A stretch of 35,303 bases of DNA from Methanosarcinales archaeon (GTDB lineage: Archaea > Halobacteriota > Methanosarcinia > Methanosarcinales > Methanogasteraceae): NCBI GenBank assembly GCA_030625165.1, contig DAOURL010000007.1, forward strand, positions 1 through 35,303. Reading direction: 5' to 3'. Position 1 is the first letter of the stretch, and each line of letters starts with the position of its first letter. Positions 1 through 30,026 of the stretch are shown one piece after another. The position numbers and the translations under genes are program-made. The notes under the pieces are model-generated. The model was not told the origin of the DNA. It saw only the letters and a list, made by a program, of their open reading frames with translations, and did not search any database.

Positions 1-141
1 ACCGCAGAGTACGCAGAGGGGCGCGGAGGTGGAATAAATGGTTAAATGCTCTGCGTTCCTCTGCGCCCTCTGCGGTTATTTTTCTTGCCAGAAATTACAG
101 GATCGCAATCAGGAGACCAATCAGTATACCTGAGTAGTTAC
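1..141. mobile_element. MITE family 1, right part (cut by window edge)
   Basis: This is the right-hand part of a non-autonomous element found complete at 7316-7551 and 12581-12812. It shows the central imperfect inverted repeat of CTCTGCG-type units (about 1-75) and the conserved right flank. It ends in TACCTGAGTAGTTAC at 127-141, the reverse complement of the left terminus seen in the full copies. The left end lies outside the window, so its target duplication cannot be tested. It contains no coding sequence. Confidence 0.85.
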
Positions 142-317
142 CAAAAAACAGATGTGGTTTGGCACAATACAACAAGAAGGAACTAAAAAGTCTCACAAAA
201 CTGAGACATAGTTATTGGATTCTATAGCTTAAGCATCAAGTCCAAACGCCGCATAAAACAAGCCCCCGAGCAACCACAACATAGTTGAGCAAGCACGCAA
301 AAACCCAATCACAAACC

Positions 318-6192: not shown

Positions 6193-7200
6193 TCAGAAAA
6201 TTCCATCGATCTCTGCGCCGCAGTTAAAACATTTCCCGTCCTCGATCCGGTTCTCGATGATGCTGAATCCGAATCGTTTGATCAGGAGCTCTTTACACCG
6301 GTAACAGTATGTGTTCTCGTTTCCCATGCCAGGAATGTTTCCCTCGTAGACATATCTGAGCCCTTCTTCGATACCGATCTCCCTTGCCCTGTGCAGAACC
6401 TCGACAGAGGTCGAAGGAGCATCAAGGAATCTGTACTGCGGATAGAACTGGCTGATATGCCACGGAATCTCAACACCGACATCTGCGATGAATCCTGCGA
6501 TCTCTCGCAACTCTTCCTCGCTGTCATTGACGGTCGGCACCACGAGCGTTGTCACCTCGAGCCAGATGCCAAGTTCCTTGTACCGCCGGATCGTGTCGAG
6601 AACCGGCTCGAGTCTTGCCCCGCACATCTTCCGGTATGTCTCGTCCCTGAAAGCCTTGAGATCGATGTTTCCGGCATCGAGATACTGCGAGAGCTCAGAA
6701 AGTGCCTCCTCGCTTGTGTACCCGTTTGTGACAAAGACGTTCTTGATGCCTGACCTGTGTGCGAGTTTCATCACATCGAGCGCGAACTCCGTGAAGATTG
6801 TGGGCTCAGTGTAAGTGTATGCGATCGTCTTGCAATCGTGCTGGGTCGCAGACCAGACCACATCCTCCGGAGTCATATCGTGACCCGGTATCTCCTTCGT
6901 GGTCATCGGAATCTGGCTGATGTTCCAGTTCTGGCACCAGCGACACTTGAAATTGCATCCGGCAGTCGCTATCGAGAACGATTCAGTGCCGGGAAGGAGA
7001 TTGAATAGCGGCTTCTTCTCGATCGGATCGACACCGCTTGCGATGACCCTGCCATACACGAGACTGTAGAGTACCCCTTTCCGGTTCTCCCGTACTGAGC
7101 ATATCCCCCGCTTGCCAGGGGCGATGGTACAGAAATGGTTGCATAAATGACATTTAACCTTGTCATCTGCAAGTTTCTCATAGAACATGGCTTCCCTCAT
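6193..7200 (-). CDS. amrS: AmrS-type radical SAM protein (AmmeMemoRadiSam / PFL-activase-like)
   Basis: A 335-residue radical SAM enzyme of the COG1180 group. An N-terminal cysteine cluster (CHLCNHFCTIAPGKRGICSVR) is followed by the radical SAM CNFKCRWCQNW motif. The body is typical of this family: YTYTEPTIF, FVTNGYTSEEAL, NIDLKAFRDETYRKMCG. A C-terminal CYRC...CFNCG zinc-like pair closes it. It is related to pyruvate formate-lyase activase. The usual partners (Memo and AMMECR1) are not in this window, so the substrate is not indicated. I start it at ATG 7200; the frame continues upstream to 7251, but those residues lack family similarity. A TATATA stretch at 7208-7213 may be its promoter. 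Confidence 0.85.
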   Translation of the reverse strand: MREAMFYEKLADDKVKCHLCNHFCTIAPGKRGICSVRENRKGVLYSLVYGRVIASGVDPIEKKPLFNLLPGTESFSIATAGCNFKCRWCQNWNISQIPMTTKEIPGHDMTPEDVVWSATQHDCKTIAYTYTEPTIFTEFALDVMKLAHRSGIKNVFVTNGYTSEEALSELSQYLDAGNIDLKAFRDETYRKMCGARLEPVLDTIRRYKELGIWLEVTTLVVPTVNDSEEELREIAGFIADVGVEIPWHISQFYPQYRFLDAPSTSVEVLHRAREIGIEEGLRYVYEGNIPGMGNENTYCYRCKELLIKRFGFSIIENRIEDGKCFNCGAEIDGIF

Positions 7201-7282
7201 GATTGGCACCGATATATAGTTCAGGGCTGGTGGGATATGAATGTTTGGCAAAAACTATGAGCCACTAATCTCCCACCCGGAG

Positions 7283-7315
7283 GGCATTTCTTACTCGATT
7301 TTTTGTGAGAAAATC
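7283..7315. repeat. Fragment of hairpin repeat family, split by the MITE
   Basis: GGGCATTTCTTACTCG followed by CGATTTTTTGTGAGAAAATCG resembles the right part of the repeat at 18636-18666. The palindrome ends exactly where MITE family 1 begins at 7316, so the MITE appears to have inserted into or beside this older repeat. Confidence 0.55.
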
Positions 7316-7551
7316 GTAACTACTCAGGTACCTAAAACCACTATCAGGAGACTTCACTATGCAGGGACTACCGGGGACATGGGGGCTACTGTAACCAAAC
7401 CGGGAATTTAACCGCAGAGTGCGCGGAGGGACGCGGAGGGGAAATAAACGGTTAGACGCTCTGCGTTCCTCTGCGCCCTCCGCGGTTATTTTTCTTGCCA
7501 GAAAGTACAGAATCGCAATCGAGCGACCAATCAACATACCTGAGTAGTTAC
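7316..7551. mobile_element. MITE family 1, complete copy (236 bp)
   Basis: The ends are perfect 15-base inverted repeats, GTAACTACTCAGGTA at 7316-7330 and its complement at 7537-7551. The flanking 8-mers AGAAAATC and AAAAAATC differ at one base, consistent with an aged 8-bp target duplication. Inside is a large hairpin of CTCTGCG-like units and a conserved right flank shared with copies at 1-141 and 12581-12812. Ends starting GTAA with 8-bp duplications are typical of the IS66 family, so movement by an IS66 transposase in trans is a reasonable inference. The element carries no ORF of its own. Confidence 0.88.
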
Positions 7552-7562
7552 AAAAAATCGGA

Positions 7563-8411
7563 CTAAACCCGAAGACCCCTGACAAGCGCAACAAAGAGCC
7601 CCCCGATTATGATATCCGCAGTCGAACCCGGATTTGCCTTTTCACGGATCAAACTCTCATCAAATTCATGAACTTCGGATTTTATCGATGCCAGATCCCT
7701 GCTGCCCCTGATAACATCTGATGCACGCTCGCTGATCTCGATTGACTTGTCCTTGCCGAACTTTGTCCGGATGAAGGTATCAGGAGTCTCTGCAAGCATC
7801 CGGAGGAACGTGCACACGATGGCGTCATTGATGCTCATCGTATCCGCCTTCTTTGTGATCATATCCGCGCACCAGTTTGTCCGCTCAAACCCGCTCACCC
7901 ACTCGTTTGCGACCAGATCATGGTCGGCAGAGAGTCTCATCAGATCGAAGAGTTTGATCCCATCTTCCTGAATCCTGTCAGCAGAGTTCGATTCCCCAAG
8001 ATCGAAGTCAGGAACAGAGTCGATACGGACATTCGCAATCGAGAACGCACGATAGAACTCAACCGCGTCCTCGGAAGTGGTATTTTGAACTATCTTTGAT
8101 GCCGGCGTGTCGCTTCCGGCAGCCATCAACAGCGGTATCAGCAGCACGAACGCGCCGAAATGAGTGTTTCCTCCGCGCTGCCATCGCAGGGACTCCTCGG
8201 CTGCCGCACGTATCAGCGCGCCAGCGCCGGTGCGCGACCTTGCCGCCTCTTCCAGTACAGGGTATGTCCCGACCGCTGATGCCAGGAAGTGCTCAAAGGT
8301 CGTGTCAGGAAAGTCGTGATCCCGATCCACGTTTCCGGGTTTGGGATGGGCAGCGACCTCGAGAACCATTGCAAGTTGTGCGCAGCGCGCCAGATGTGAT
8401 GGATCGTTCAT
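7563..8411 (-). CDS. CitG-family (triphosphoribosyl-dephospho-CoA synthase-like) protein
   Basis: A 282-residue protein of the CitG/MdcB family. These enzymes condense ATP with dephospho-CoA to make the prosthetic group precursor of citrate and malonate lyases. The family hallmarks near the N terminus are visible: EVAAHPKPGNVDR, the FEHFLASAV segment and RGGNTHFGAFVLLIPL. In archaea without these lyases the CitG-like protein has an unsettled role, so I name only the family. The gene stands alone, with the MITE close behind its stop and degraded genes upstream. Confidence 0.75.
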   Translation of the reverse strand: MNDPSHLARCAQLAMVLEVAAHPKPGNVDRDHDFPDTTFEHFLASAVGTYPVLEEAARSRTGAGALIRAAAEESLRWQRGGNTHFGAFVLLIPLLMAAGSDTPASKIVQNTTSEDAVEFYRAFSIANVRIDSVPDFDLGESNSADRIQEDGIKLFDLMRLSADHDLVANEWVSGFERTNWCADMITKKADTMSINDAIVCTFLRMLAETPDTFIRTKFGKDKSIEISERASDVIRGSRDLASIKSEVHEFDESLIREKANPGSTADIIIGGLFVALVRGLRV

Positions 8412-8478
8412 ATCTCTTTATGTTCCTTTCTTATCGTTCCGAGCGTGTCTGAAGTTCCTCAAAGGAGATTTATACGAG

Positions 8479-8553
8479 CTATATGAAACTTTCAGTCAGA
8501 ACCGTTGCGATATTCTCCATTTCAGCATGGATCTTCTCTTCTATGCTAACCAT
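8479..8553 (-). pseudogene. 24-codon stub of the gene after the MNT nucleotidyltransferase
   Basis: An ATG overlapping the last eight bases of the nucleotidyltransferase gene opens a frame MVSIEEKIHAEMENIATVL... that ends at TAG after 24 codons. Minimal nucleotidyltransferases are commonly followed, with just such an overlap, by a HEPN-domain (HepT/DUF86) partner forming a toxin-antitoxin pair. The stub is helical and charged, as HEPN N termini are, but too short to identify by sequence. I read it as the remains of that partner. Confidence 0.4.
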
Positions 8554-8812
8554 ACAGCACTACTCCATCTCGTTTTACAAGTTTATTAAATAAACAATCT
8601 TTACTTAAATCGATAACATCTAGTGGCTTGGATAGATCTCTATACAGTTCCCAGCAGAAATCAAAGAAGGATTCAGGCGCCAGCCCGATTACACCAATGT
8701 CTATATCGTTCGCGTCTGTTCTTTCTCTGGATGAGCCGAAAAGTATCACTCTTGTCAATTTGTATTTTTTTGCGTATTTCAATATCAGAAGCTTATCGTT
8801 TTTGGATATCAT
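8546..8812 (-). CDS. Minimal nucleotidyltransferase (MNT, MntA-type)
   Basis: An 88-residue protein with the nucleotidyltransferase-fold signature: VILFGSSRERTDANDIDIGV (GS...DxD), and the later PLDVID strand providing the third acidic residue. It starts at the ATG at 8812; the frame is open further upstream, but that part overlaps another remnant and lacks domain similarity. MNT proteins usually act as antitoxins that AMPylate a HEPN RNase encoded next door. Here the next frame is cut to 24 codons, so the pair looks dismantled. Base composition is AT-richer than that of the flanking housekeeping genes. Confidence 0.8.
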   Translation of the reverse strand: MISKNDKLLILKYAKKYKLTRVILFGSSRERTDANDIDIGVIGLAPESFFDFCWELYRDLSKPLDVIDLSKDCLFNKLVKRDGVVLYG

Positions 8813-8834
8813 CGCATTCCATGTTTCCTTAACG

Positions 8835-9002
8835 CTATATCTGGATTTCGTCTTTGGTCGCAGCTGCCACCGCATCGATGTATGTGTCCAGCTTCGAACC
8901 GCTTGCAACGATTCCTCCAGGAAATGGCGTGATCGAGCCTTCGAGTTGCATGACCGCCTTTAAACCCAGCCCTTCGAAGCGCATCGCCTGCACCCGCGCC
9001 AT
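8835..9002 (-). pseudogene. Remnant resembling formylmethanofuran:H4MPT formyltransferase (Ftr)
   Basis: A 55-codon frame starting 9 bases after the PIN gene stop. Its middle reads EGSITPFPGGIVASGSK, very close to the conserved segment of Ftr, the enzyme that passes the formyl group from formylmethanofuran to tetrahydromethanopterin in C1 metabolism. Ftr is about 300 residues; only this piece and a loosely matching tail (AAATKDEIQI) remain. The frame ends at TAG before the nucleotidyltransferase. I read it as a fragment of a lost paralogue, not a working enzyme. A small protein that reuses the motif cannot be excluded. Confidence 0.5.
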
Positions 9003-9011
9003 CCCAAAAAC

Positions 9012-9389
9012 TCACGGAACAGAGACAAGATAACTCCGCTGCCGCAGATACACGACCTTCACGCCCCCTTCTCGTAACCTTCCTTTCAGTTCAGCATCGT
9101 TGGTAAAGACGGCAACCTTCATCTCGACCGCAAGTTCCACGATTGAATCGTCCACATTTCCCACAGCCTCCGCAGTCTCGATCGTCTGGCACCGGTCCAT
9201 GAGGGCTAGCGCAACACGGGCCGCGTCACTGCCCTTACCTCTGCCATGGGATGCGATCCCTTCGAGTTCGCGCGCCACCCCGGATGGGACGATCCAATCA
9301 TCAAAACCGAGTGCTGCAAGTTCTGAAAAGATATCGACACCAAACTCCGCGGGCACCATCAGTGCATTGGTGTCGAGTATTATTTTCAT
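9012..9389 (-). CDS. PIN-domain protein (Fcf1/VapC-like fold) downstream of aIF2-gamma
   Basis: A 125-residue protein that is all PIN domain. The acidic metal-binding residues can be seen as D6 in ILDTNAL, E41 in VARELEG, D80/D81 in NVDDSIVELA and D98 in FTNDAEL, so nuclease activity is plausible. In many euryarchaea this same gene (COG1412-type) follows aIF2-gamma in an operon leading to RNA polymerase subunit RpoE. That supports a role in rRNA or tRNA processing over a toxin role. Here a 190-base gap with a repeat separates it from aIF2-gamma, and rpoE is missing behind it. Confidence 0.85.
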   Translation of the reverse strand: MKIILDTNALMVPAEFGVDIFSELAALGFDDWIVPSGVARELEGIASHGRGKGSDAARVALALMDRCQTIETAEAVGNVDDSIVELAVEMKVAVFTNDAELKGRLREGGVKVVYLRQRSYLVSVP

Positions 9390-13739: not shown

Positions 13740-15434
13740 TTAAGGTTCCTCTACCCTGCCGCTCGTGTACTTTGCTATGTACAATGCGTCCAGCATATCC
13801 ACAACACCATCTCCTATCGGGTCTCCAGCTTCGCCTGCGACATCCCCAACCAGTACGCCTGGTGGATTCAAGGCTTCCGGTTCCAGACCTGCTACATAGT
13901 TGGATATGTAATCCACATCCATCTCGTCGACGAGACCATCACCGTTCACATCGCCTCTCTTAAGGACTGTTAGCTCGATGCTCACCGAATCATTGATGCC
14001 TCCATCGTTATCGGTTGCATTGATAGTCAACTGGTGGGTGAAGTCCGGGGCATTAATAGCAGCAACAACCTCTGTTGCGTTCGTGGTCACTTCCCATACA
14101 TCCCCCAAGATGTGCTCCATCGGCTGGACAGGTGATCCGCCTATTGATGAGAGATTGATAGTTACCGCGATGATGCTACCGTCCGTATCGGTTACCTGAG
14201 CACTCAGCGAAGTGACGTTTGTTCCGGGTGTTCTGGGTCTGCCGTTGTCGTAGAGTATCGTATCAGGAGTTCTGGATACGTTTGTCACCTCTGGCGGTAC
14301 GTTTTCCCGGATGCTGAACGTTCCATTCCTCCTGATGTGGACGATTTCCTTGAAGGATACGTCAAGCAACCGGCTATCCTCAAACTCCATCTCGCTCACA
14401 TCACTCTTGTTGCCAACAGCAGCGAGAGTGACGTGTGCAAAGGTCACGTTTCCACTCAGTCCATCCACATCAAGCGCGTTTGCACGCATCCATCCGGAAC
14501 CATTGTTGACATTAAACTTAAATGAGTAACGCATGTCGCCCCGGGCAACATCAGTCATACGAACTACTGTGGGATCATAAGTGAAATTGATCTCGCAGAC
14601 GCTCATATCCACCGTGTCAAAGACCATGATCGGGACGGTCATATTCCCCCCCGGCATTACAACAACATCTTCTATGTACAGGGTTGCCGGGAGTCTCGCC
14701 TCGTACGTCGCTGAGTTGTCCGTAGCCGCATTGCTGTTATTTGACGCGTCGGTTGCAACAACGGTTACGTTGTATGTGCCTGGAGCTCCGGCAGCCGTTA
14801 TCGTGCCTTCCCACGTATCGCTTCCGGCATCTGCAAGGGAAACACCGTCAGCAGTCACACTCGCTATGCCTGACGCATCGGTTGCGGTGACAATCACGTT
14901 GATCGACCCGTTTGGTGCAACCACTGTCGGATCAAGCACCACTGAATGTATCACCGGTGGTGTCGTGTCGTTTGCCGATATGATCGCAAATGACCCATTG
15001 TTCACTGTGTATGATATCTCGGTGTAGTTTATATCAACGAGGTTTATGGATGTGATGTTTAGCGGGCTCGTATCTCCGTCATCGCCCACTGCGGTGAGAT
15101 CGATATATGCAAAGGTCACGTTTCCACTCAGTCCCTCCGTGTCAAGCGCATTTGCGCGCATCCATCCGGAACCATTGTTGACATTAGACATAAACGAGAA
15201 ACGCAAATCGCCCTGGAGGACATCGGTCATACGAACTACTGTTGGGTCATAAGTGAAATTGATCTCGCAGCCGCCCAGCATCACCGTATCGTTGATCCGG
15301 ATCGGTGCTGTGACTGTGTTGCCGGGTTCGACGCTGTAATCATCGACGCCGATGGTCGTTTCAGATGCAGCTACAAGCGATATCGAGATGAGCATAAGTA
15401 TGCTCAAACAGGTAAGTTGTATTAATTTAGTCAT
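13740..15434 (-). CDS. Secreted protein with two cohesins, Ig-like modules and a C-terminal dockerin
   Basis: A 564-residue modular protein. A signal peptide (about 1-23) is followed by cohesin 1 (24-150), an Ig-like module starting TTPPVIHSVVLDPTV (155-245), cohesin 2 (247-375), a second Ig-like module (378-490) and a dockerin (about 494-564). The dockerin has two calcium-binding repeats, GDVNGDGLVDEMDVDYISNY and GDPIGDGVVDMLDALYIAKY, each with a D-x-N/G-x-D loop. Cohesin and dockerin modules bind each other in cellulosome-like assemblies; having both in one chain allows chaining. There is no catalytic domain. Its 3' end closely matches that of the next gene (15467-17374), while its 5' end matches 12841-13707, so it is a mosaic. 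Confidence 0.82.
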   Translation of the reverse strand: MTKLIQLTCLSILMLISISLVAASETTIGVDDYSVEPGNTVTAPIRINDTVMLGGCEINFTYDPTVVRMTDVLQGDLRFSFMSNVNNGSGWMRANALDTEGLSGNVTFAYIDLTAVGDDGDTSPLNITSINLVDINYTEISYTVNNGSFAIISANDTTPPVIHSVVLDPTVVAPNGSINVIVTATDASGIASVTADGVSLADAGSDTWEGTITAAGAPGTYNVTVVATDASNNSNAATDNSATYEARLPATLYIEDVVVMPGGNMTVPIMVFDTVDMSVCEINFTYDPTVVRMTDVARGDMRYSFKFNVNNGSGWMRANALDVDGLSGNVTFAHVTLAAVGNKSDVSEMEFEDSRLLDVSFKEIVHIRRNGTFSIRENVPPEVTNVSRTPDTILYDNGRPRTPGTNVTSLSAQVTDTDGSIIAVTINLSSIGGSPVQPMEHILGDVWEVTTNATEVVAAINAPDFTHQLTINATDNDGGINDSVSIELTVLKRGDVNGDGLVDEMDVDYISNYVAGLEPEALNPPGVLVGDVAGEAGDPIGDGVVDMLDALYIAKYTSGRVEEP

Positions 15435-15466: not shown

Positions 15467-17374
15467 TTAGGGCTCCTCTACCATGCCGCTCGTGTACTTT
15501 GCTATGTACAATGCGTCCATCAGATCCACAACGCCGTTACCTACCGGGTTTCCAGCGTCACCTATAACGTCCCCTGCCAGTACACCTGGTGGATTCGAGG
15601 CTTCCGGTTCCAGACCTGCCAGATAGCGGGATATGTAATCCGCATCCATCTTGTCAACGAGACCATCACCGTTCACATCGCCCCTCTTGAGGACGGTTAG
15701 CTCGATGCTCGCCGAATCATTGATGCCTCCATCGTCATCAGTTGCAGTGATAACCAACTCGTGGGTGAAGTTCGGGGCATTAAGAGCACCAGCAACCTCT
15801 GTTGCGTTCGTGGTCACTTCCCATAGATCCCCTGCGACGTACTCCATCGGCTGGACAGGTGATCCGCCTATCGATGAGAGATTGATGGTGACCGCGGTGA
15901 TGCTACCGTCCGTGTCGGTCACATACGCACTCAGCGAAGTGATGTCTGTTCCGGGTGTTCTGGGTCTGCCGTTGTCATAGAGTATCATATCAGGAGTTGC
16001 GGATACGTTTGTCACATCTGGCAGTACGTTTGGCAGGATGCTAAACGTTCCATTATCCCTTATGTGGGTGATCTCACCGAAGGATGTGTCGAGCAATCGG
16101 CTATCCTCAAACTCCATCTCGCTCACATCACTCTTGTTGCCAACAGCAGCGAGGGTGACGTGTGCAAAGACCACGTTCCCACTCTGTCCATACACATCAA
16201 GCGCGTTTGCACGCATCCATCCGGAACCGTTGTTGATGTTGTACTCAAACGAGAAGTTCAGGTCGCCCCGTGCGACATCGGTCACATAAACGACTGTTGG
16301 GTCATACGTGAAAGTGATCTCGCAGCCGCTCATATCCACCACGTCGAAGACCATGATCGGGACGGTCTTATTCTCTCCTCGTCTTATGGCAACATCTTCT
16401 ATGGATAGGGTTACTGGAAGTCTCGCCTCGTACGTCGTTGAACTGTCCGTAGCCATATTGCTGTTGTTTGACGCGTCGGCTGCAACAACGGTTACGTTGT
16501 ATGTGCCCGGAGTGCCTGCAGCTGTTATCGTGCCTTCGTAAGTGTCGTTAGCAACGAGCGCGAGTACAATGCCGTTAGCAGTCACACTGGCTATGCCTGA
16601 GTCGTCGGTTGCGGTGACGGTCACGTTGATCGACCCGTTCGGTGCAACCTCTGTCGGATCAAGCACCACTGAGATTATCTCTGGCGGTGTTGTGTCTCCT
16701 GGCTCTGGTACCGTATACGTCGCTGAGTCGTCCGTAGCGTTATTGCCGTTCGGTGATGCATCAGTTGCAACAACGGTTACGTTGTATGTGCCCGGAGTGC
16801 CTGCAGCCGTTATCGTGCCAGTCCATGTGTCGTTTCCAGCATCTGCAAGTGAGACGCCTTCAGCAGTCACACTGGCTATGCCGGAGTCGTCGGTTGCGGT
16901 GACGGTCACGTTGATCGACCCATTCGGTTCAGATACTGTCGGATCAAGCACCACTGAGTGAATCGTCGGTGGTGTCGCGTCTCCTGGCTCTGCGAGACTG
17001 ATGTTGTACACGAATCCGCCAGCATCCAACTCATTCTGGGTAACTACGTGTTCTGTGACACTCGACTGGCTTTCATCCGGACTTGCGGCGTTGAACTGCA
17101 ACGTATCATTAACGCTTACGTTATCGCTGTCCAGCACCATCTGGTAATCGTTCGAGCTTTCGTTCGTCTCGGCTACCCATGTACCACTTGTATCCAGGTT
17201 TGTTATGTTGACCGTGGGATCGTTGCATTCGCTACCGTTTTCATAGAAAACGACTCCACTGATCACAAACGAAGCTGTCGGCGCAGCATAAGCTGCAGAC
17301 ATTGTTCCAATCATTACCACGATTGCAATGATTGCGCATCTCAAATACGATCTATTTGGGTTCATTCTTTCCAT
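15467..17374 (-). CDS. Secreted cohesin protein with Ig-like modules and C-terminal dockerin
   Basis: A 635-residue surface or exported protein. A signal peptide (about 1-30, MIGTMSAAYAAP) is followed by a carboxypeptidase-regulatory/Cna-B-like beta module (36-125, ISGVVFYENGSECNDPTVNI). Then come two near-identical Ig-like modules (about 130-220 and 225-318), one cohesin (320-445), a further Ig-like module (450-565) and a dockerin with GDVNGDGLVDKMDADYISRY and GNPVGNGVVDLMDALYIAKY repeats. In the second loop a calcium-ligand position reads N (GNG) instead of the usual D. Many NxS/T sequons suggest N-glycosylation. It is the first of three head-to-tail related genes, with paired hairpins upstream of its start. 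Confidence 0.82.
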   Translation of the reverse strand: MERMNPNRSYLRCAIIAIVVMIGTMSAAYAAPTASFVISGVVFYENGSECNDPTVNITNLDTSGTWVAETNESSNDYQMVLDSDNVSVNDTLQFNAASPDESQSSVTEHVVTQNELDAGGFVYNISLAEPGDATPPTIHSVVLDPTVSEPNGSINVTVTATDDSGIASVTAEGVSLADAGNDTWTGTITAAGTPGTYNVTVVATDASPNGNNATDDSATYTVPEPGDTTPPEIISVVLDPTEVAPNGSINVTVTATDDSGIASVTANGIVLALVANDTYEGTITAAGTPGTYNVTVVAADASNNSNMATDSSTTYEARLPVTLSIEDVAIRRGENKTVPIMVFDVVDMSGCEITFTYDPTVVYVTDVARGDLNFSFEYNINNGSGWMRANALDVYGQSGNVVFAHVTLAAVGNKSDVSEMEFEDSRLLDTSFGEITHIRDNGTFSILPNVLPDVTNVSATPDMILYDNGRPRTPGTDITSLSAYVTDTDGSITAVTINLSSIGGSPVQPMEYVAGDLWEVTTNATEVAGALNAPNFTHELVITATDDDGGINDSASIELTVLKRGDVNGDGLVDKMDADYISRYLAGLEPEASNPPGVLAGDVIGDAGNPVGNGVVDLMDALYIAKYTSGMVEEP

Positions 17375-18679: not shown

Positions 18680-21600
18680 TCATGACAACCTGACATTCCC
18701 CTGCGTCGGCTCGTAGAGTTCGCCCTGCGTCTTGAGTCGCTTGAGCATGTCCTCGACATGTTCCTTGTCAAACCCTTGCTCTTCAGCCCTTGCATAGATC
18801 TCGTCCTTCGAAGCCATGCCGCTGTGCTCTGCCGCAATATCACGTATGATGCCGCGCAGTATCTTGAACTTATCACGCTGGCTCTTGCTGACGCCGGTGG
18901 TTATGATATCGGCATCGAACATGCCAGTCTCGGCATCGAACGCAACCTGCCGCAGGCAGCTCTCGACGACCCGGATCACACGTTTTGCATCATCGATCGT
19001 GACCTCATCGCTAAGTCGCATCCTTGCGCTCGCCTCACATAACCGCACCAGCGCCTCAAGCTGCCTTGCTGTTACCGGTACAGGCGAATCCCGATCCTCG
19101 CCCTGCCGCCGAAGCCCGAGATAGAACTCGATCAGGCGATCCATTGCGTCGCTCTCCATGATCGGATAGACCCCTTTCTTTGCATAAGCGATGTACTTCC
19201 TGAGCAGATCAGGCATGATCTCCGGCTTTATGATCGTCATCGCACCCTCGACATCAGCGTGCGTGACGCCGCTACCTGAGACGTAGGTCCGGTGGGCATG
19301 AAGTTCACCTGCATGGTGTGCGCCAAGAATGTGGGATGCGATAGCCGAATCCCTACCGATATCGGGTTCATCCTTGAGCACGAAGATCAGGTCGAATCTG
19401 GAGAGGAGTGCAGGCGCCATCTTGATCTGCTGCGCGATTCCTTCGTACGGATCGAACCGTCCGTATTTTGGATTCGCAGCACCGAGAAGGGAGCATCTCG
19501 ATTTCAGGGTCGCCATAATTCCTGCTTTCGCGATACTTACTGTGTTATGGAGGATCAGCCCGTTGCTCACGAACGTGTGGTCCGGCTCAACCGTGACGTC
19601 ATAAACCCAGTCAAAGCCATCGTTTCTGACCATCGATACTGATTTGACCGTCGTAAACCGGATGTCAGAGTTGGCGATCCTTTTTATGCCTTTGATCGTA
19701 TTCCCTGATGCGCCGATCTTCGCTTTCGCTATATATTTGATCTGTTCCAACATGCAGGAAGCGTTCTTTGTTGATGGGTTCCTTTCGATATACGTCACCA
19801 TCGAATCTGAAAGATCCATCCGTTCGGCGATCAGATGGATGGGAATCCGGTATTTCTTTCGTATTTCCCTCGGATTCGTCATCTCGTCGATGTTGTGTGG
19901 CTGGAGGTCGGACAGGTATGATTCGACCTTGTTTAAGTATTTCAGAGCGACTTTTCTGTGAATCCCATTATTGTTCGCGATGATCTTGTCGAAATAACCG
20001 TTATCCAACCGGTAATCCTTCAACAGTTTTTTTATCAGGATTGCGATATCGACGGGAACGGTATCGCGGTCATTCAATTTATTATGGCTTCTTACTACAA
20101 ACTGACTGATCCTTTCATGTCTTTTGTCATGCGTTCCGATAATATCATAGAATCTCTTCTGACTATCCTGCCCTGAGACCACCACTTTATATGCACTTTT
20201 CGTCCGTTCTTCCTTGTTTGACCTGTATTCAGCCGATTTAGCGATGTAGGAATAGATACCCAGGCAGAGCAATAGATCAGAATAATCGTTTGCCAGACCG
20301 ATCGAATTCGTCGTATACCCAAACCGCTCGGAATCGTAAAAACCATCGCCTCGGAACGCACCGATTAAGAATTCTATCTTAACATCGTCGTATGATGCAA
20401 ATATCTGATCAGGAATTCGCTTTTCATGCGATCTGACAGTCACTCCCTCGAAATTCAGTTTCATGAATTTGTGCAGCGGAATCGATGCGCATCTGACCGT
20501 GTACAAATCCTTCGTGGCGGTTTTTCTTGTATTATGCGGCTGATGCTGGATATATGTCGTGGTATCAAAGGTTCCCCGGATCAGATCATCCGCATCGTTT
20601 ATGATATCGAGATCGGTGTTCGAGATCATAACCTCAGCAGCGCCGTTCTTCTCTGAATAATAGACATGCCCCTCGCTCACGATATAGCCAAGCAGTCTGC
20701 CAAGATCACTGTCGAGACGTGTTGGGAACGATATCTCCTTGTAATGGCGACCCTGCGCACGTTGACGCGAATCCGGGATTTGCAATGAGACCTCGGAACT
20801 GGCAAGCGGATACTTATTTGGAATCGGAGCAAACGCCCCCTCCTCAAGCTCACCTGCCAGCACGGTTGTTATCTCGCCGTTTTGCATGACATAAACAGGG
20901 TGTTCCGGTGTAACGGCGATGCTTCTTCCGTTCGAATACGTGATCTGTATGAAGTGGTCGGGTGCCTTATGCCGGCTGACACGGTTGATTGGTATCTGGC
21001 ATATATTATTATCCGGATTAAGTGCCAATATCCCTGTGCCGTCAAGATCGCGGTTACCATCAAAGGGTAAAATCTCACAATCGACTCCGTCTATGGTATT
21101 ATCCCGGTTATTTTCGATAAGCGCATCAACAAACTCCCCAATCCTGACTTTCCGCCCGTCTGAAAACATAATCTCAGTGGAGGGGTGGTAGGATTGCTGT
21201 TCCATTGCTTCGTGAATAGCGCTCCGGTCCTCCGGACGCATCTTATCCATCTCATCGACCGCTGCAATCCCCTGATCTGCAAGCACGAGTGCGCCAGCCT
21301 CAAGCGTCCACCTGCCATCGCCGAATTCGTCGCGGACAGCAGCCGCGGTGAGCCCAGCTGCCGAACTTGAGCGACCACTCGTATAGATCCCGCGGGGCGC
21401 AAGTTTCCTGATGTACCTGAGGAGTTGCGACTTGGCAATCCCGGGATCGCCGACGAGCAGAATATGCACATCCCCGCGGATCCTCGCGCCGTCCGGAAGG
21501 TTCTTTGGAACGCCGCTCATCAACTGTAGCGCAAGCGCCTCCTTCACCTCCTCGTATCCATAGATGGATGGAGCGATCGATGCAATGATTTTTTTATAGA

Positions 21601-22414
21601 TCCCCGGGTCTTTACTAAGTTTTATGATCTCTTCTTCCTCTTCCGGCGCAATCTCGATCTCTGTGAACTCCTTGTCCTTCGTCTCGATCGAGACCGAGTC
21701 GAGTATGATATCAAAGAACGTGCTCTTGCCTTCGCGCGTGATCCGCTGGTAGGACCGCAGGACTCCTGCGATGATCACATGGTCCCCGGGCGCTACGATC
21801 CCTGCAATATCATCCTCGATATTAACGTCAAGGGTCTGCGGCTGTTCGCCTCCACGCATGTCCTCCGGAGATTCCTGCACCCGCAGTTTCTGTGCATCCA
21901 CAAACTCTGATTCAGTAAGTTTTATCTTAAACTGTCCTTTTCTCCCGCATCCCTCATTTTTGCACATATACGGCTCCACAAACCTGCCGCTGGACTGGGG
22001 CACGAGCATGGTATCTCCGCACCCGTTGCATTCGAATGCCGCGACAAGCAATCTCGGGCGCACCTCGGTCGCCATGCGCACAAGCCCCTCGATAGCGATC
22101 AGTTTCGAGATGTGGATGCTGCGCAGATCCCGTATCTGGACCTTCTGCGGGATGTTTGTGATTCGCAGATGTGCGTTTGTGAGCGTCTTCTTGACCGGGA
22201 GATCAAAACTCCGGAGCGCTTCCTCTGCTGTACTGAGAATCCGGTCCGGATGCGTTAGAAGTTCTTCTGCCAGATCAGGATCGAATTTCTCGATATTTAC
22301 GAAATCAACATACAGACTTCGGCTTTCCGGGTATTCGTTCGCCAGAGCAAGGATGTCTCCGATGTAGTAACGATTAAAAAACTTATCCCACTGGGCGGAT
22401 GTGTCGGTTTTCAT
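18680..22414 (-). CDS. mcm: Replicative helicase MCM, interrupted by an intein
   Basis: The 1244-residue precursor contains a 550-residue intein; the joined extein would be 694 residues, a normal archaeal MCM. The N-terminal domain has the zinc motif (C129, C132, C151, C156) and the OB-fold hairpin region. The AAA+ part shows Walker A GDPGIAKSQ (322-330), Walker B AAVDEMDKM and, after the intein, sensor 1 GAANPKYGRFD and the arginine finger LLSRFDLIF. A winged helix ends it (KDEIYARAEEQGFDKEHVEDMLKRL). MCM unwinds DNA at the replication fork as a hexamer, and activity depends on splicing. The intein sits just past Walker B at EAMEQQ/T, a conserved place. No partner replication gene is adjacent, although primase PriL is 10 kb away. 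Confidence 0.95.
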   Translation of the reverse strand: MKTDTSAQWDKFFNRYYIGDILALANEYPESRSLYVDFVNIEKFDPDLAEELLTHPDRILSTAEEALRSFDLPVKKTLTNAHLRITNIPQKVQIRDLRSIHISKLIAIEGLVRMATEVRPRLLVAAFECNGCGDTMLVPQSSGRFVEPYMCKNEGCGRKGQFKIKLTESEFVDAQKLRVQESPEDMRGGEQPQTLDVNIEDDIAGIVAPGDHVIIAGVLRSYQRITREGKSTFFDIILDSVSIETKDKEFTEIEIAPEEEEEIIKLSKDPGIYKKIIASIAPSIYGYEEVKEALALQLMSGVPKNLPDGARIRGDVHILLVGDPGIAKSQLLRYIRKLAPRGIYTSGRSSSAAGLTAAAVRDEFGDGRWTLEAGALVLADQGIAAVDEMDKMRPEDRSAIHEAMEQQSYHPSTEIMFSDGRKVRIGEFVDALIENNRDNTIDGVDCEILPFDGNRDLDGTGILALNPDNNICQIPINRVSRHKAPDHFIQITYSNGRSIAVTPEHPVYVMQNGEITTVLAGELEEGAFAPIPNKYPLASSEVSLQIPDSRQRAQGRHYKEISFPTRLDSDLGRLLGYIVSEGHVYYSEKNGAAEVMISNTDLDIINDADDLIRGTFDTTTYIQHQPHNTRKTATKDLYTVRCASIPLHKFMKLNFEGVTVRSHEKRIPDQIFASYDDVKIEFLIGAFRGDGFYDSERFGYTTNSIGLANDYSDLLLCLGIYSYIAKSAEYRSNKEERTKSAYKVVVSGQDSQKRFYDIIGTHDKRHERISQFVVRSHNKLNDRDTVPVDIAILIKKLLKDYRLDNGYFDKIIANNNGIHRKVALKYLNKVESYLSDLQPHNIDEMTNPREIRKKYRIPIHLIAERMDLSDSMVTYIERNPSTKNASCMLEQIKYIAKAKIGASGNTIKGIKRIANSDIRFTTVKSVSMVRNDGFDWVYDVTVEPDHTFVSNGLILHNTVSIAKAGIMATLKSRCSLLGAANPKYGRFDPYEGIAQQIKMAPALLSRFDLIFVLKDEPDIGRDSAIASHILGAHHAGELHAHRTYVSGSGVTHADVEGAMTIIKPEIMPDLLRKYIAYAKKGVYPIMESDAMDRLIEFYLGLRRQGEDRDSPVPVTARQLEALVRLCEASARMRLSDEVTIDDAKRVIRVVESCLRQVAFDAETGMFDADIITTGVSKSQRDKFKILRGIIRDIAAEHSGMASKDEIYARAEEQGFDKEHVEDMLKRLKTQGELYEPTQGNVRLS
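19544..21193 (-). other. Mini-gene inside mcm: Ser-1 intein with LAGLIDADG homing endonuclease
   Basis: Residues 408-957 of the MCM precursor. It begins at Ser (SYHPSTEIMFSDGRKV), contains the block B motif VTPEHPVYV with the Thr-His pair, and ends with VYDVTVEPDHTFVSNG then LILHN before the first C-extein Thr. It therefore has the His-Asn end and a Thr +1 nucleophile. Two LAGLIDADG-type motifs can be seen, LGRLLGYIVSEGHVYY and LIGAFRGDGFYDS. Near the C-terminal part IPIHLIAERMDLSDSMV looks like a small helix-turn-helix. Ser at position 1 is less common than Cys but known. Both splicing and endonuclease residues appear intact. Confidence 0.92.
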
Positions 22415-24120: not shown

Positions 24121-24224
24121 TCGGGCGTGTGATGATGCGAATCAGGATATTGGGGGATTATAACACGGTGCAGGGCGCGGCTGGCGCATCGGTCTCGAAT
24201 GTTGAGTTGATGCTAAGTCGATAA
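24121..24224 (+). pseudogene. Degenerate copy of the asd 3' end
   Basis: The bases encoding the last ~35 residues of asd recur here in decayed form. The stretch GGCGCGGCTGGCGCATCGGT is identical to the original, and the frame still reads GAAGASVSNVELMLSR before an in-frame TAA. The start of the copy is heavily eroded. It is followed by 172 bases of unrelated sequence (24225-24396), then by a second, exact piece of the same duplication at 24397-24430. Confidence 0.8.
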
Positions 24225-24308
24225 GTCGCGTGCGGAACAATCGAAAACTCCACTGAAAACACTCTGATGGCACTGCCGATTCCAGTGAAATCGCCATGCC
24301 CTTAGATT

Positions 24309-24373
24309 ATACCGCAGAGTGCGCAGAGAATTGAAAACGGTCTCGAAACTCTGCACCCTCCGTGGTGATAAAA
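24309..24373. repeat. Degenerate CTCTGCG-type hairpin
   Basis: ACCGCAGAGTGCGCAGAG on the left and CTCTGCACCCTCCGTGGT on the right form an imperfect inverted repeat of the kind found in the core of the MITEs. The MITE ends are missing. It is contained in the insertion that splits the duplicated asd tail. Confidence 0.6.
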
Positions 24374-24396
24374 ACACTTGATTTTCAGACTGTATC

Positions 24397-24430
24397 GTCG
24401 CGGGTTATTGTGAGCGGTCGATCAAAACCT
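24397..24430 (+). repeat. Exact 34-bp copy of the asd stop region
   Basis: These 34 bases equal 23805-23838, spanning the last codons of asd, its stop and 17 bases beyond. The last eight bases, CAAAACCT, are also the left target duplication of the IS1 element. After the element, the copy resumes with CAAAACCTGCCCA at 25506, as in the original, so IS1 landed inside the duplicated segment. Confidence 0.85.
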
Positions 24431-24439
24431 GGTAATATC

Positions 24440-25057
24440 CTAATCCAAGATAGTTAATTGGAAATAGAAAAATTCGTGCCATGTCCACAGGTTATCCGCC
24501 ACTCCTTCCAACATTGCAGGCGTTGTTCTTCTTTTGAACTCGTTTATGAAATTCCAATAGAATTGAAACACTTGGAGCGAACATTCCAGCCTCCACCTCC
24601 GTTTTGAGAAACATTTTGTCTTCCATACCAACCTACCAAGCCTTTCCCTGAGTATCCCGTTGTAGTTCTCGACATCAGTGGTTTCTATATCACCGGGATC
24701 TGGGTTGCCATATATTGTTCTTTTCTCCTTGCGGACGACTCTTCCGTTCTCCCTGATCTTTACAAGCTGCCCATAATCGATACAGGTATCTGCATAATAA
24801 TCTGGAAAAACATAAGTGTAATCGTCGTTTCCATCGGTGAACACCTCCATTTTAGTCTGCGGAGACGGCTGCTCCGTTCTTTCAGATAGCTTCTCTATCA
24901 TTCTTCCACAAGTCTCTTGGGTCCATTTCCCAACTGAAAAAGCCACAAAGAAGTATGTACTTCGCTTTATGCAGGTGTAGATCCATGCATCACCCTCTTC
25001 AGTCCAATTTGAGCTGCCGGGCTCAATATTTTTTTGTTTTTTTTGACAAAGCTCCAT
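24440..25057 (-). CDS. insB: IS1 transposase, catalytic part (InsB frame)
   Basis: The second frame of the element. With the upstream frame it would give a fusion of roughly 335 residues. It continues the IS1 catalytic domain: EGDAWIYTCIKRSTYFFVAF, then the second acidic residue in EVFTDGNDDYTYVF and the third in VENYNGILRERLGRLVWKT, followed by CFSKRRWRLECSL and a C terminus LTILD. The ATG at 25057 lies upstream of the slippery run and is probably not a normal start; translation should enter by the -1 shift. Fusion length is greater than E. coli IS1 (232 residues) because of a longer N-terminal part and insertions. Confidence 0.88.
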   Translation of the reverse strand: MELCQKKQKNIEPGSSNWTEEGDAWIYTCIKRSTYFFVAFSVGKWTQETCGRMIEKLSERTEQPSPQTKMEVFTDGNDDYTYVFPDYYADTCIDYGQLVKIRENGRVVRKEKRTIYGNPDPGDIETTDVENYNGILRERLGRLVWKTKCFSKRRWRLECSLQVFQFYWNFINEFKRRTTPAMLEGVADNLWTWHEFFYFQLTILD

Positions 25058-25449
25058 AGTTCATCACATTCGAATGGTGTAAGCCCGAGGGTCTTTATGA
25101 GGTACTCATTCATCTCTGCCGCATGCTCAGCCATATCCTCCAGCAATCTACCTATCGTGTCCCTATGGTGTCCTGTAATCCGCTCGATACTCCGTGCCCC
25201 GTTCTTCTCTACCAGGTACTTGCAAATATTGATTATTTCACTTTCGGTCAGTTGTTTTCGGTATAACGGAGTGCCCTTCGTTTCCATGAAATAGGTTTCG
25301 CAATGCTTGCAGTAATACCTCTGATGGCCGGTACTCTTGGACTTACCACTTTTGATAATGTCTTTCCCAGCTTCTTTTCGGTAATAACGGCACTCAGGGT
25401 TCTGACAGACAACATCGATTTTTCCTCTTGGTCGCGCCATGGTGTTCAC
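24967..25449 (-). CDS. insA: IS1 InsA-like DNA-binding frame
   Basis: A 160-residue frame with two N-terminal zinc-ribbon cysteine pairs (CQNPECRYY and RYYCKHCETYF), a helix-turn-helix around IERITGHHRDTIGRLLEDM, and the first catalytic acidic residue in FECDELWSFVKK. It shares GKSTGHQRYYC-type sequence with E. coli InsA. The run of eight As (25037-25044) follows the VKK codons. A -1 slip there leads into the InsB frame; without the slip, translation ends after 29 more codons, giving a probable regulator. Confidence 0.88.
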   Translation of the reverse strand: MNTMARPRGKIDVVCQNPECRYYRKEAGKDIIKSGKSKSTGHQRYYCKHCETYFMETKGTPLYRKQLTESEIINICKYLVEKNGARSIERITGHHRDTIGRLLEDMAEHAAEMNEYLIKTLGLTPFECDELWSFVKKNKKILSPAAQIGLKRVMHGSTPA

Positions 25450-25567
25450 CAGGAGAATGGTTCTGTTGCATACTATAATAAACTATCGTAAATTAGGACA
25501 CTACCCAAAACCTGCCCAGCCGGGCGACCAATTAAATTAAATCAGATTGCAGCCCCTATTCTCTAAT

Positions 25568-26596: not shown

Positions 26597-26669
26597 GTTC
26601 GTTTCATTCTCGATCCACAAATCCCGGGGGCAGCATCATTTAATTAGTTAGAAGGTCGTATCACTAAAT

Positions 26670-27920
26670 ATGCCGATCGGATCAGAAGGCAAGGTGGTGA
26701 AAGCGGACACTCTGAAAGACATGTACCGCGTTTTTGCATACGAGCCGTTGACCAGGGACGATTTCGGGTATTATGTAAAGAGAGAAAGCCCGAGAGAGAA
26801 TTTCAGACTGGGTCTGTTGTGCGGCGGGGAGCGGTATCTGCTTGCCGGGCATAGTGGCTGCGGTAAATCAACCGAACTGATCAGATTGTCCGATGAGTTA
26901 AAAGATGACTTTTTTGTTGTTTATTTTTCAGTGGAAGGTGAACTGGACATCGACGACCTGCAATGTGAGGATGTATTGGTTGCAATCGGGCTTAAGATAT
27001 TCAAGGAGGCTAAACGATTAGAAGAGGATGGATTGATCGAGAAATTGAATACAGATATCATAGATGACTTCTACGAATTCCTCTCTGATGTAACAGAGAT
27101 AAAAGTAGAGGAGAGAATAAAAGAAAAAGGAGTCGGGGCTAAACTAACATATTTACTCAGTTTTTCGGGCTGGTTAAAGAGTGAATCAAGAACCAGAGTG
27201 GAGATGCGAAGAAAGTTGGAGCATCGATTGAGCGATCTTATCGAGAGAATCGATAACATGGTAAGTGAGGCAGAAATCAAGACGAAAAAACCTGTTCTTA
27301 TTATAGTAGACGATCTGGAGAAGATACCAAGAATAGACGCGGCAAAGAAGTTGTTTTATGAAGATATAGGCGTGTTATTGCAGATAAAACCCAGAATGAT
27401 CTACACAATTCCTATTTCGCTGGTACTTGATCCGATTTTTGCTCAGATCAAATCGAGATTTGATGATGACCAGACACTTCCGAATATAAAAATAAAGGAT
27501 AGAGATGGTAACCCATTAACAGACGGCAAAGAATTTTTTGAGAATTTTGTTAATAATCGGATAGGGGACAAACAATTAATCGAGGGAGAAGCTCTGGATT
27601 TTGCGATTGAGATGAGTGGTGGGGTTCTTGGGCAGTTTGTGAACATCATACGAAATTCCGCCATATATGCTCTGCAGGATGGAGATGATTGTATAAAAAA
27701 GATACATATAGAATTGTATGTACATAAGGAACGGAGAAGTTTTGATCGATTTCTCAGTTATGACGATATTGAATTTTTGAAGGTGATTCGTGATAACAAG
27801 GATGCAAGAGACGGGAATACGTTATTAACGCTTCTTCACTCTTTAAGCATCCTTGAGTACCAGAATGATAACAACTGGTTCGATGTAAATCCGATCATCG
27901 TACCGCTGTTAGAAAAATGA
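26670..27920 (+). CDS. P-loop ATPase (AAA/STAND-like), first gene of a two-gene module
   Basis: A 416-residue ATPase. A short N-terminal region is followed by Walker A AGHSGCGKSTEL (about 62-73), FVVYFSVEGELDIDDLQCED (an early beta-strand block), a long charged coiled region, and Walker B PVLIIVDDLEKI. The C-terminal third resembles the winged-helix part of such ATPases. No DNA-binding zinc finger or nuclease is seen. The ATG of the TPR protein overlaps the stop of this gene (ATGA). Both genes are visibly AT-richer than the neighbours, suggesting transfer. Comparable ATPases in bacteria are paired with TPR proteins in signalling or defence islands; no function is proven. Confidence 0.75.
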   Translation: MPIGSEGKVVKADTLKDMYRVFAYEPLTRDDFGYYVKRESPRENFRLGLLCGGERYLLAGHSGCGKSTELIRLSDELKDDFFVVYFSVEGELDIDDLQCEDVLVAIGLKIFKEAKRLEEDGLIEKLNTDIIDDFYEFLSDVTEIKVEERIKEKGVGAKLTYLLSFSGWLKSESRTRVEMRRKLEHRLSDLIERIDNMVSEAEIKTKKPVLIIVDDLEKIPRIDAAKKLFYEDIGVLLQIKPRMIYTIPISLVLDPIFAQIKSRFDDDQTLPNIKIKDRDGNPLTDGKEFFENFVNNRIGDKQLIEGEALDFAIEMSGGVLGQFVNIIRNSAIYALQDGDDCIKKIHIELYVHKERRSFDRFLSYDDIEFLKVIRDNKDARDGNTLLTLLHSLSILEYQNDNNWFDVNPIIVPLLEK

Positions 27921-29146
27921 TCGCTGCAAACGATGTCTTAGATGTCGAAAGTGAACTTGGGCGGATTGTTACGGAGTTGGAAGTATCAAAAGATACCGGT
28001 GATGTCATAATTGCGGTATGTAATGATTTTTCCTTGCGGAAACTAATAACAGATGAAATTATACAGAGAACCGGGTATAACAGATACGACATACATCTTG
28101 ATGAGAAAAACAAGAATTTGCCGAAGATATTATCCGAAGAAAAGGATGAGATCTTGGATTCCATCGTTTTTGTTCATGGGATAGAGAAAGCAGAGCCGGA
28201 GATCTATCGATATCTAAATTTCCAGCGCGATATATTCTATAAACTGAAGCAGAGGGTTGTGTTGTGGTGTTATTCCGGGTTTGTCAGGAATCTCCTAAAA
28301 TATGCGGCTGATTTCTGGAGGTTCAAGGGAAATACTTATGAATTCGATTTGAAGGTGGAGAGGGAGCTTCCCGTTGTCCAGTACATGCTTTCAAAGGATA
28401 TCCATTACAGAGATATAGATGAGTTGAACAGCAGAATAAAAATTTTCGAATATTTATTGAAAGAGGTTAAAAGCGACAGAGAGAACGCAGATATACTTTT
28501 GAAAATGGGGATATTTTACTACTTAAAATATGATCTCGATAAAGCAGAGGAGATGTACAGAAAGTCACTTGCAATCAATGAGGCGCTTGGTCGGAAGGAG
28601 GGGGTGGCAAGTGGTTACGGCAATCTCGGAAACGTGTATCAGATTCGCGGAGACCTCGATAAAGCAGAGGAGCTGTACAGAAAGTCACTTGCAATCGAGA
28701 AAAAGCTTGGCAGGAGGGAGGGGATAGCAAATCAGTGTGGCAATCTCGGAAATGCGTACCTGATTCGTGATGATCTCGATATCGCTGAGGAGCTGTACAG
28801 AAAGTCGCTTTTGATCAACGAAGATATCGGCAGGAAAGAAGGAGCTGCAAGTGATTACAGCAATCTCGGAAATGTGTACCGGATCCGCGGCGATCTCGCA
28901 AAGGCAGAGGGGATGTACAGAAAGTCACTCGAATTGTTCATCTCGATTGGAAGCGAAAACATGATCAAAAAATTGAACTTTCTGATCACTGATCTGAAGC
29001 AAAGTGGGCGGATGACGACTCAGGAACTTCTCCAGCCCGTCACAGTGTGCCGGCAATGCGACCCGGACCTGCAACACTCCAGATCGTATCTGGATGCCGT
29101 TAGCGCTTTTAACCAACGAAGATTGGCAGGAAAGAAGGAGCAGTAA
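27917..29146 (+). CDS. TPR protein with degenerate NTPase-like N-terminal domain, partner of the ATPase
   Basis: A 409-residue protein. Residues 1-190 look like a P-loop fold lacking Walker A (DVIIAVCNDFSLRKLI where it would be). They include a block LNFQRDIFYKLKQRVVLW followed by YAADFWRFKGNTYEF, which recurs before TPR arrays in bacterial STAND-like proteins. Residues 204-345 are tandem 40-residue TPRs (DLDKAEEMYRKSLAINEALG..., GNLGNVYQIRG), three and a half units, encoded by near-identical 120-base repeats at 28531-28930. After about residue 360 the sequence loses TPR character and probably does not match the ancestral end; the expected continuation is found in another frame at 29125-29352. 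It may sense or bind proteins for the ATPase. Confidence 0.72.
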   Translation: MIAANDVLDVESELGRIVTELEVSKDTGDVIIAVCNDFSLRKLITDEIIQRTGYNRYDIHLDEKNKNLPKILSEEKDEILDSIVFVHGIEKAEPEIYRYLNFQRDIFYKLKQRVVLWCYSGFVRNLLKYAADFWRFKGNTYEFDLKVERELPVVQYMLSKDIHYRDIDELNSRIKIFEYLLKEVKSDRENADILLKMGIFYYLKYDLDKAEEMYRKSLAINEALGRKEGVASGYGNLGNVYQIRGDLDKAEELYRKSLAIEKKLGRREGIANQCGNLGNAYLIRDDLDIAEELYRKSLLINEDIGRKEGAASDYSNLGNVYRIRGDLAKAEGMYRKSLELFISIGSENMIKKLNFLITDLKQSGRMTTQELLQPVTVCRQCDPDLQHSRSYLDAVSAFNQRRLAGKKEQ

Positions 29147-29352
29147 GTGATTACAGTAACATAGGAACACTGTTTGCATCCACAAAAAGATACAAAGAAG
29201 CACTGCAAAATTTCATGACCGCTGCCGTAATATTTGGGAAATTAGGTTCGCCGAAGACGGCACTTAACGAAATCAGCGCCATAAAACAAAAACTCGACGA
29301 TTCTCAGTTCAACCGATATCAGAAGGAGATCGAGTCGCTTTCTCTTGCATAA
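29125..29352 (+). pseudogene. Out-of-frame TPR C-terminal tail
   Basis: In the frame one base off the preceding gene, these bases encode GRKEGAVSDYSNIGTLFAS, then KRYKEALQNFMTAAVIFGKL and a charged helix ending IESLSLA before TAA. The first part equals the third TPR unit (GRKEGAASDYSNLGNVY) almost base for base. It is the end of a TPR gene, either cut off from 27917-29146 by a frameshift and a ~110-base foreign stretch, or left over from a paralogue. There is no start codon of its own. Confidence 0.75.
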
Positions 29353-29525
29353 CCTGCTCCATCGCCCCTGAAAACCGCCCCTTCCACTCGTCCATTATCT
29401 CCACAAACGCCACCCCCCTTGAATGCCACGTCACAATCCGGCAATTGTGTCTCATGAAGCGAGAGCATGAGACTTACGGCAACCATGGTCTTCTCTGTCG
29501 CCTTTTCCGCTTGCAACCGATATGA

Positions 29526-30026
29526 TCACGATCGCATCCCCGCAAGAAGTTTACCTGCCTTTGATTCGTACTCCACGATGTACGCGGACGCCCGGATGGC
29601 AAGATCCAGTCTGGTTTCGGGAGAAACGCCGCCCGTATCGCGAATCTCTTCGATCACACCGCCGTACTGGTCCGGATCGGTTACAGCAGCTACGCTCCGA
29701 AAATTCTTTATAGCCGATTTCAGTAGCGCAACGCCACCGATATCCATGCTCTCGATCGAGCTCATCGGGATCAGATTTACGACAACGATTGCGATCTCTC
29801 CGGTCGCGATTGCGGCGTGGACTTCCGGATGGAGCGTCTTTATCCTGCCGCCAAGCATCTCAGAAAATCCCGTCAATTCAGATACGTGGATTACAGGGAT
29901 CCCGTTTCGTGAGATCTCTCTTGCAGTCCCTTCTGTTGCGATCATCTCTATTCCAAGATCAGACAGATCGTTTGTGAACTTTTTCAGGTCTCTTTTGTCT
30001 GATACGCTTATCAGGGCTCTTTTCAT
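29526..30026 (-). CDS. purH: Stand-alone IMP cyclohydrolase (PurH N-terminal type)
   Basis: A 166-residue protein equal to the IMP cyclohydrolase half of bacterial PurH, which closes FAICAR to IMP. The start KRALISVSDKRDLKKFTNDL, TEGTAREISRNGIPVIHVSE, LGGRIKTLHPEVHAAI and VVVNLIPM...MDIGGVALLKSAIKNF blocks are the family's signature. The formyltransferase half is absent; archaea that do this usually make FAICAR with PurP. Most methanogens use a different cyclohydrolase (PurO), so this type resembles Archaeoglobus. It is shorter than the bacterial domain by one loop. Its ATG overlaps the stop of the UPF0200 gene. Confidence 0.85.
   Translation of the reverse strand: MKRALISVSDKRDLKKFTNDLSDLGIEMIATEGTAREISRNGIPVIHVSELTGFSEMLGGRIKTLHPEVHAAIATGEIAIVVVNLIPMSSIESMDIGGVALLKSAIKNFRSVAAVTDPDQYGGVIEEIRDTGGVSPETRLDLAIRASAYIVEYESKAGKLLAGMRS

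Follow-up and report, generated by a model that had tools for sequence, protein, structure and literature searches.

The stretch of DNA analysed here, called the window throughout, comprises 35,303 nucleotides of contig DAOURL010000007.1 from a Methanosarcinales archaeon (assembly GCA_030625165.1), the genome of which amounts to 2.3 Mb in 258 contigs. An ATPase gene and a TPR partner gene lie in it one behind the other and share an ATGA overlap (Table 1), an arrangement that suggests translational coupling and a fixed ratio of the two products. The open reading frames agree with the first-pass annotation, made from the letters of the sequence, which had reported an ATPase with clean Walker A and Walker B motifs overlapping a TPR gene by ATGA. 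It had also taken 26670-29352 as one two-gene module. The two genes are indeed there, but the TPR frame closes at 29146 and the remainder is a broken tail.

Table 1. Features of the ATPase/TPR island, in window coordinates unless residues are given
Feature	Position	Strand	Description
Mobile island	26604..29531	.	~2.9 kb, flanked by a convergent pair of housekeeping genes
AAA+/STAND-like ATPase gene (putative class)	26670..27920	+	416 aa ORF
Helical hydrophobic insert in ATPase	residues ~100-205		between Walker A and B
Further ATPase features			sensor-1-like YTIP; putative AAA+ lid MSGG; C-terminal LLHSLSILEYQNDNNWFDVNP segment, winged-helix-like by inspection
TPR partner gene	27917..29146	+	409 aa ORF
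Partner N-terminal domain	27917..28480	+	~188 aa; signature LNxxR(D/E)xF ... APDFWxxR
TPR array	28525..28940	+	40-aa repeats, 120-bp period, LGN/KLC type
C-terminal cap (LELFISIGSENMIKKLNFLITDLKQ) and ~45-residue tail	28941..29146	+	early stop TAA at 29144-29146
Out-of-frame remnant of the former 3' end of the TPR gene	29104..29352	+	part of a repeat and C-terminal cap, frameshifted off the ORF

The GC content of the island is 0.426 and that of the ATPase gene 0.404, against 0.518 for the remainder of the window; island-length stretches elsewhere in the window range from 0.478 to 0.552. The AT-richness read earlier from the letters thus holds, and at 13 of 14 other loci, too, the pair is poorer in GC than the DNA around it.

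Some further genes of the window deserve a record in their own right. A recent IS1-like insertion occupies 24221-25505, with the transposase in two overlapping minus-strand frames (DDE_Tnp_IS1, E 1.3e-4; InsA-type zinc ribbon, E 0.0015); the sister genomes G298, G299 and G300 lack it at the corresponding place. A large intein, itself with a homing endonuclease of the LAGLIDADG type, interrupts the MCM helicase gene (18680-22414, minus strand); the models matched were MCM domains, Intein_splicing (E 3e-17) and LAGLIDADG_3 (E 2e-19). Two adjacent genes on the minus strand (13740-15434 and 15467-17374) encode cohesin-domain proteins, here in an archaeon, and the second adds an Ig-like domain. A short minus-strand gene at 29526-30026 matches an MGS-like domain but, of the AICARFT/IMPCHase model, only the beginning; it resembles a PurH reduced to its N-terminal part, and its product is ~166 aa in the sister genomes too.

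The Walker A motif of the ATPase (GHSGCGKST) spans residues 60-68, and Walker B reads VLIIVDDL, with VLIIVDD at residues 209-215. When 30 homologues were aligned, the P-loop was invariant or nearly so; D214 of Walker B, followed by T246/P248, was invariant, as were R180 and R297. The C-terminal block of the same alignment, 'LLxxLxxLEYxN..W..xxP', looks like a winged helix by inspection of its pattern. The insert between the Walker motifs is hydrophobic, and scoring it for a membrane segment gave no consistent transmembrane prediction. Against Pfam, the protein scored 26.1 bits with AAA_22, just below the cut-off of 27, and AAA_16, KAP, ATPase_2 and NACHT were weaker still; the KAP model exceeds its cut-off in a Nostoc relative. 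The family profile matched RFC, TnsC, ORC4 and mS29 in the PDB weakly (mS29/DAP3-like match, E 0.38), the alignments with RFC and TnsC reaching into the lid region. From these weak profile matches together with the Walker motifs, the protein appears to belong with the AAA+ ATPases. An AlphaFold model built on a shallow alignment of close relatives was unusable (mean pLDDT 35.4). Apart from a generic TPR match, PADLOC models gave only weak matches to the two proteins (mad8, 2.5e-4; PDC-S20, 0.0027), and no relative of the ATPase was found in the viral contigs searched.

The N-terminal domain of the partner had been interpreted as an NTPase fold that lost its Walker A motif. This holds in part: the LNFQRD..VVLW..ADFWRF block is present, and no P-loop was seen in the partner or in 30 homologues of the domain, in the alignment of which R104 is invariant. 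However, profile-profile comparison detected no homology between the domain and the ATPase, and its profile found no convincing match among PDB sequence families; weak matches, mostly to Rossmann-type proteins, were judged to be due to chance. The AlphaFold model of the partner, likewise from a shallow alignment of close relatives, reached a mean pLDDT of 64.8, good over the TPRs and poor over the N-terminal domain, where the low-confidence model alternates helix and strand in a manner compatible with a P-loop-like core. The domain may possibly be an inactive P-loop core, as far as this model goes. A Foldseek search with the partner model had only TPR proteins (LGN, KLC) among the matches listed, and none of these fell on the N-terminal domain.

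The TPR content of the partner is clear from the Pfam match (TPR_12, E 4.4e-27), and its repeats most resemble, among the structural matches listed, those of LGN and kinesin light chain, which bind peptides. Because of this resemblance, a protein or peptide is a likely trigger. Downstream of the array, the gene has a different end from that of its sister copies. The intact partner proteins of G295 and G296 are 460-461 aa long, and the out-of-frame remnant in the window, which reads IGRKEGAVSDYSNIGTLFASTKRYKEALQNFMTAAVIFGKLGSPKTALNEI...IESLSLA*, matches their C-terminal cap. The ~45-residue tail of the window protein occurs only in the window genome and in G300, which has the same short form; no other copy turned up when its source was sought within the family. 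The truncated and frameshifted 3' end, taken together with a decayed copy in G297 and broken copies at several other loci, could mean that the island is a decaying mobile-element remnant with no present function in the window genome. Yet the window and G300 share the truncation, and a comparison of the two gives dN/dS values of 0.07 in the ATPase, 0.09 in the N-terminal domain and ~0.24 (0.026/0.110) in the C-terminal region. Given these ratios the short form appears to be still under constraint, and we regard decay as very improbable.

Next, we consider the mobility of the island. In the sister ANME-2 genomes G298 and G299, which belong to the same genus, the site is empty: the genes that flank the 2.9-kb island here lie ~48 bp apart there, and ~37-40 bp stand in place of 26604-29531. 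The horizontal transfer proposed in the first-pass annotation is supported by these empty sites, by the AT-richness and by the patchy presence of the pair. Where sister genomes do have the pair, the DNA of the ATPase and N-terminal domain is ~91-94% identical to that of the window, and dN/dS among them is 0.07-0.12 for the ATPase and 0.09-0.13 for the N-terminal domain; by this measure both are under purifying selection. The array follows a different course. Against G295 and G296, DNA identity is mostly above 90% over the ATPase and N-terminal domain, falls abruptly at ~28528, stays at ~40-60% across the TPR array and recovers past the cap. In the C-terminal part, the window and G295 proteins are 28% identical and synonymous change is saturated, which argues that the array has been replaced and has not diverged gradually. 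A single misassembly is an unlikely cause, as either type of array was recovered from two separate MAGs. More widely, in 55 pairs of loci whose ATPases are at least 55% identical, conservation of the C-terminal part was below that of the ATPase in 53 cases and below that of the N-terminal domain in 54, figures to be read with the generally fast evolution and poor alignment of repeat arrays in mind and taken without an unrelated TPR control set. The suggestion that the TPRs act as sensor gains from the array exchange next to a conserved ATPase and N-terminal domain: they are the variable, sensor-like part.

Traces of the island were also seen elsewhere. On contig C124 of G297 (locus L046) the same island is decaying, the ATPase having acquired stops and a frameshift and the TPR gene being nearly all deleted except for a C-terminal remnant. 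Isolated pieces, each of a single 120-bp TPR repeat, lie on contig C38 of G299 (L112, 10417-10537) and on contig C190 of G306 (L114), outside any copy of the pair and in the same relative place; they are 77-82% identical to the window array and are possibly scraps of array exchange.

We surveyed 295 genomes of the phylum to which the window belongs. Of 38 strong matches to the N-terminal domain, 35 are immediately preceded by the ATPase on the same strand, and the spacing between the two genes ranges from -59 to +135 nt. Conversely, six of 42 strong ATPase matches have no N-terminal domain within 3.5 kb, and several of these six are at contig ends. At one locus (L052) both proteins form a single ORF of 860 aa, possibly produced by a frameshift. 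Homologues occurring only singly or only in housekeeping operons, the outcome that had been named as refuting the module, were not what we saw: they are nearly always paired, although the flanks are mostly housekeeping genes. Its recurrence in both archaea and cyanobacteria makes the pair a real conserved unit and more than a chance association. Defence-family matches among the archaeal neighbours are single and scattered, as counted with no matched background set, and a constant third gene was sought beside the other archaeal loci and not seen. That no effector is visible also holds for the archaeal pair, which contains no nuclease, TIR or other effector.

Relatives outside the archaea are found on cyanobacterial plasmids, where the gene after the ATPase encodes the N-domain (E 1e-13 to 1e-36) together with WD40 repeats in one protein. 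This gene order was observed on Acaryochloris and Nostoc plasmids, and at least two of the N-domain/WD40 proteins contain an nSTAND1 NTPase as well. A plasmid search with the archaeal N-terminal domain at pairwise sensitivity gave no match; the profile, in contrast, detects the domain in these partners. On a Calothrix NIES-4101 plasmid (AP018277.1, L122) an ATPase, an ATPase-TIR fusion (7186-9279; TIR_2, E 1.5e-33) and a WD40 protein with two N-domains are consecutive and form a candidate immune operon of three genes. In Nostoc C057, a SAV_2336-N protein has the ATPase as its C-terminal module, and its gene shares an operon with those for MoxR and VMAP (VMAP-C). In published VMAP systems the effector modules are located C-terminally in the vWA component (PMC7159879, PMC8195603), and the SAV_2336-N part of the Nostoc protein would be that vWA component. 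An Acidobacteria plasmid has a further, weak relative near CHAT and TPR genes. As a separate observation, the pair on the Acaryochloris marina plasmid pREC1 (NZ_AP026076.1, L128) is flanked by two tyrosine recombinases and adjoins HicAB and a NACHT protein; the recombinases may delimit a cassette in which the pair travels.

These relatives bear on the question of an immune role, which had been put forward as speculation. The ATPase-TIR fusion, the VMAP-MoxR-vWA operon and the N-domain/nSTAND1-WD40 proteins suggest such a role; the mostly housekeeping flanks in archaea speak against it. The same flanks, the strong purifying selection, the effector-less archaeal pair and the ease with which slippage makes TPR arrays evolve would fit a regulatory or assembly module without immune function, with a chaperone-like or DNA-bound ATPase, a TPR scaffold for host proteins and ordinary fast evolution of the repeats. 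We consider this account rather unlikely, since it sits poorly with the patchy presence and clean empty sites, the AT-rich islands, an array swap that is abrupt where gradual divergence would be expected, and the cyanobacterial TIR fusion and VMAP-MoxR-vWA context.

We favour, with a probability of roughly 55%, the interpretation that the pair is a mobile two-gene, two-protein STAND-like switch with an exchangeable sensor, and that it is probably an uncharacterised switch of the immune (conflict or immunity) type. The physical complex, the sensing of a trigger, the ATP-driven assembly and the immune role are what we infer from the observations above. According to the STAND model, a repeat-type sensor binds its trigger, after which the NTPase assembles in an NTP-dependent manner (PMC7159879). 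The present pair would work like such a receptor cut in two. The ATPase, with its AAA+ core, lid and winged-helix-like end, would be the nucleotide-driven switch, and the co-translated partner would dock on it through an adaptor domain and bind the trigger, probably an invader's peptide or protein, with its TPR array (WD40 elsewhere). Binding would lead to nucleotide exchange in the ATPase and then to an oligomer that gives the output. In cyanobacteria this output is plausibly the fused TIR domain. As no effector is recognisable in the archaeal pair, the output there would have to come from the ATPase itself, with the hydrophobic helical insert as a candidate, or from a host protein. A more specific proposal, of one split immune receptor common to archaea and cyanobacteria in which the ATPase and adaptor stay constant, the sensor array is swapped as a cassette between strains and the archaeal form has no known effector domain, is put forward only tentatively.

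If the favoured interpretation is right, archaea, including uncultured methane oxidisers, possess a minimal two-gene STAND-type switch, and it can be asked whether cassette exchange re-targets an immune receptor with a constant motor. Natural sister strains differing almost only in the sensor array make array recognition directly askable. The definition of the family by the ATPase and the LNxxR...APDFW domain also allows the pair to be annotated as such, in place of 'AAA ATPase' and 'TPR protein'. In the openly searchable literature we found no paper describing the ATPase/LNxxR-domain pair.

Among described systems, the nSTAND2 dyad (Kaur et al. 2021, PMC8195603) appears to be the nearest in kind, on a comparison with its published description only, and we have not filed the pair under it. 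Both are mobile two-gene operons in which one protein has intact NTP-binding motifs and the other, lacking them, bears variable C-terminal modules. These likenesses and the weak mS29/DAP3-like match of the ATPase would be expected if the pair were itself a member, with one active and one eroded STAND NTPase. We think this quite improbable: the domain of the second protein, at ~188 aa, is smaller than one would expect of a complete STAND module and shows no detectable relation to the ATPase in sequence or profile, and its modules are TPR, WD40 or nSTAND1-WD40, whereas those of nSTAND2 are most commonly GT4 or HEPN, neither of which was seen in the partners scanned. The present pair also occurs in archaea as well as cyanobacteria. 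nSTAND2 systems are described with a conserved arginine finger in both proteins; here the invariant R180 and R297 of the ATPase and R104 of the partner are putative candidates for such roles. The iSTAND/iSTAND2 MoxR-vWA ternary systems (Kaur et al. 2020, 2021) similarly combine an NTPase switch, a component without NTP motifs and superstructure-forming repeats; the archaeal island, unlike them, consists of two genes only, with MoxR and vWA absent beside the pair. The VMAP-MoxR-vWA ternary systems are connected to the ATPase family through its Nostoc C057 member, whereas the archaeal pair stands independent of VMAP, MoxR and vWA. Finally, single-chain STAND receptors (APAF-1, NACHT/Avs proteins, MalT, AfsR) differ from the pair, which is divided over two polypeptides, has an extra adaptor domain and has no recognisable effector in archaea, but they share with it an ATPase, a winged-helix-like end and a repeat-type sensor, and in both the core is conserved while the sensor is diversified.
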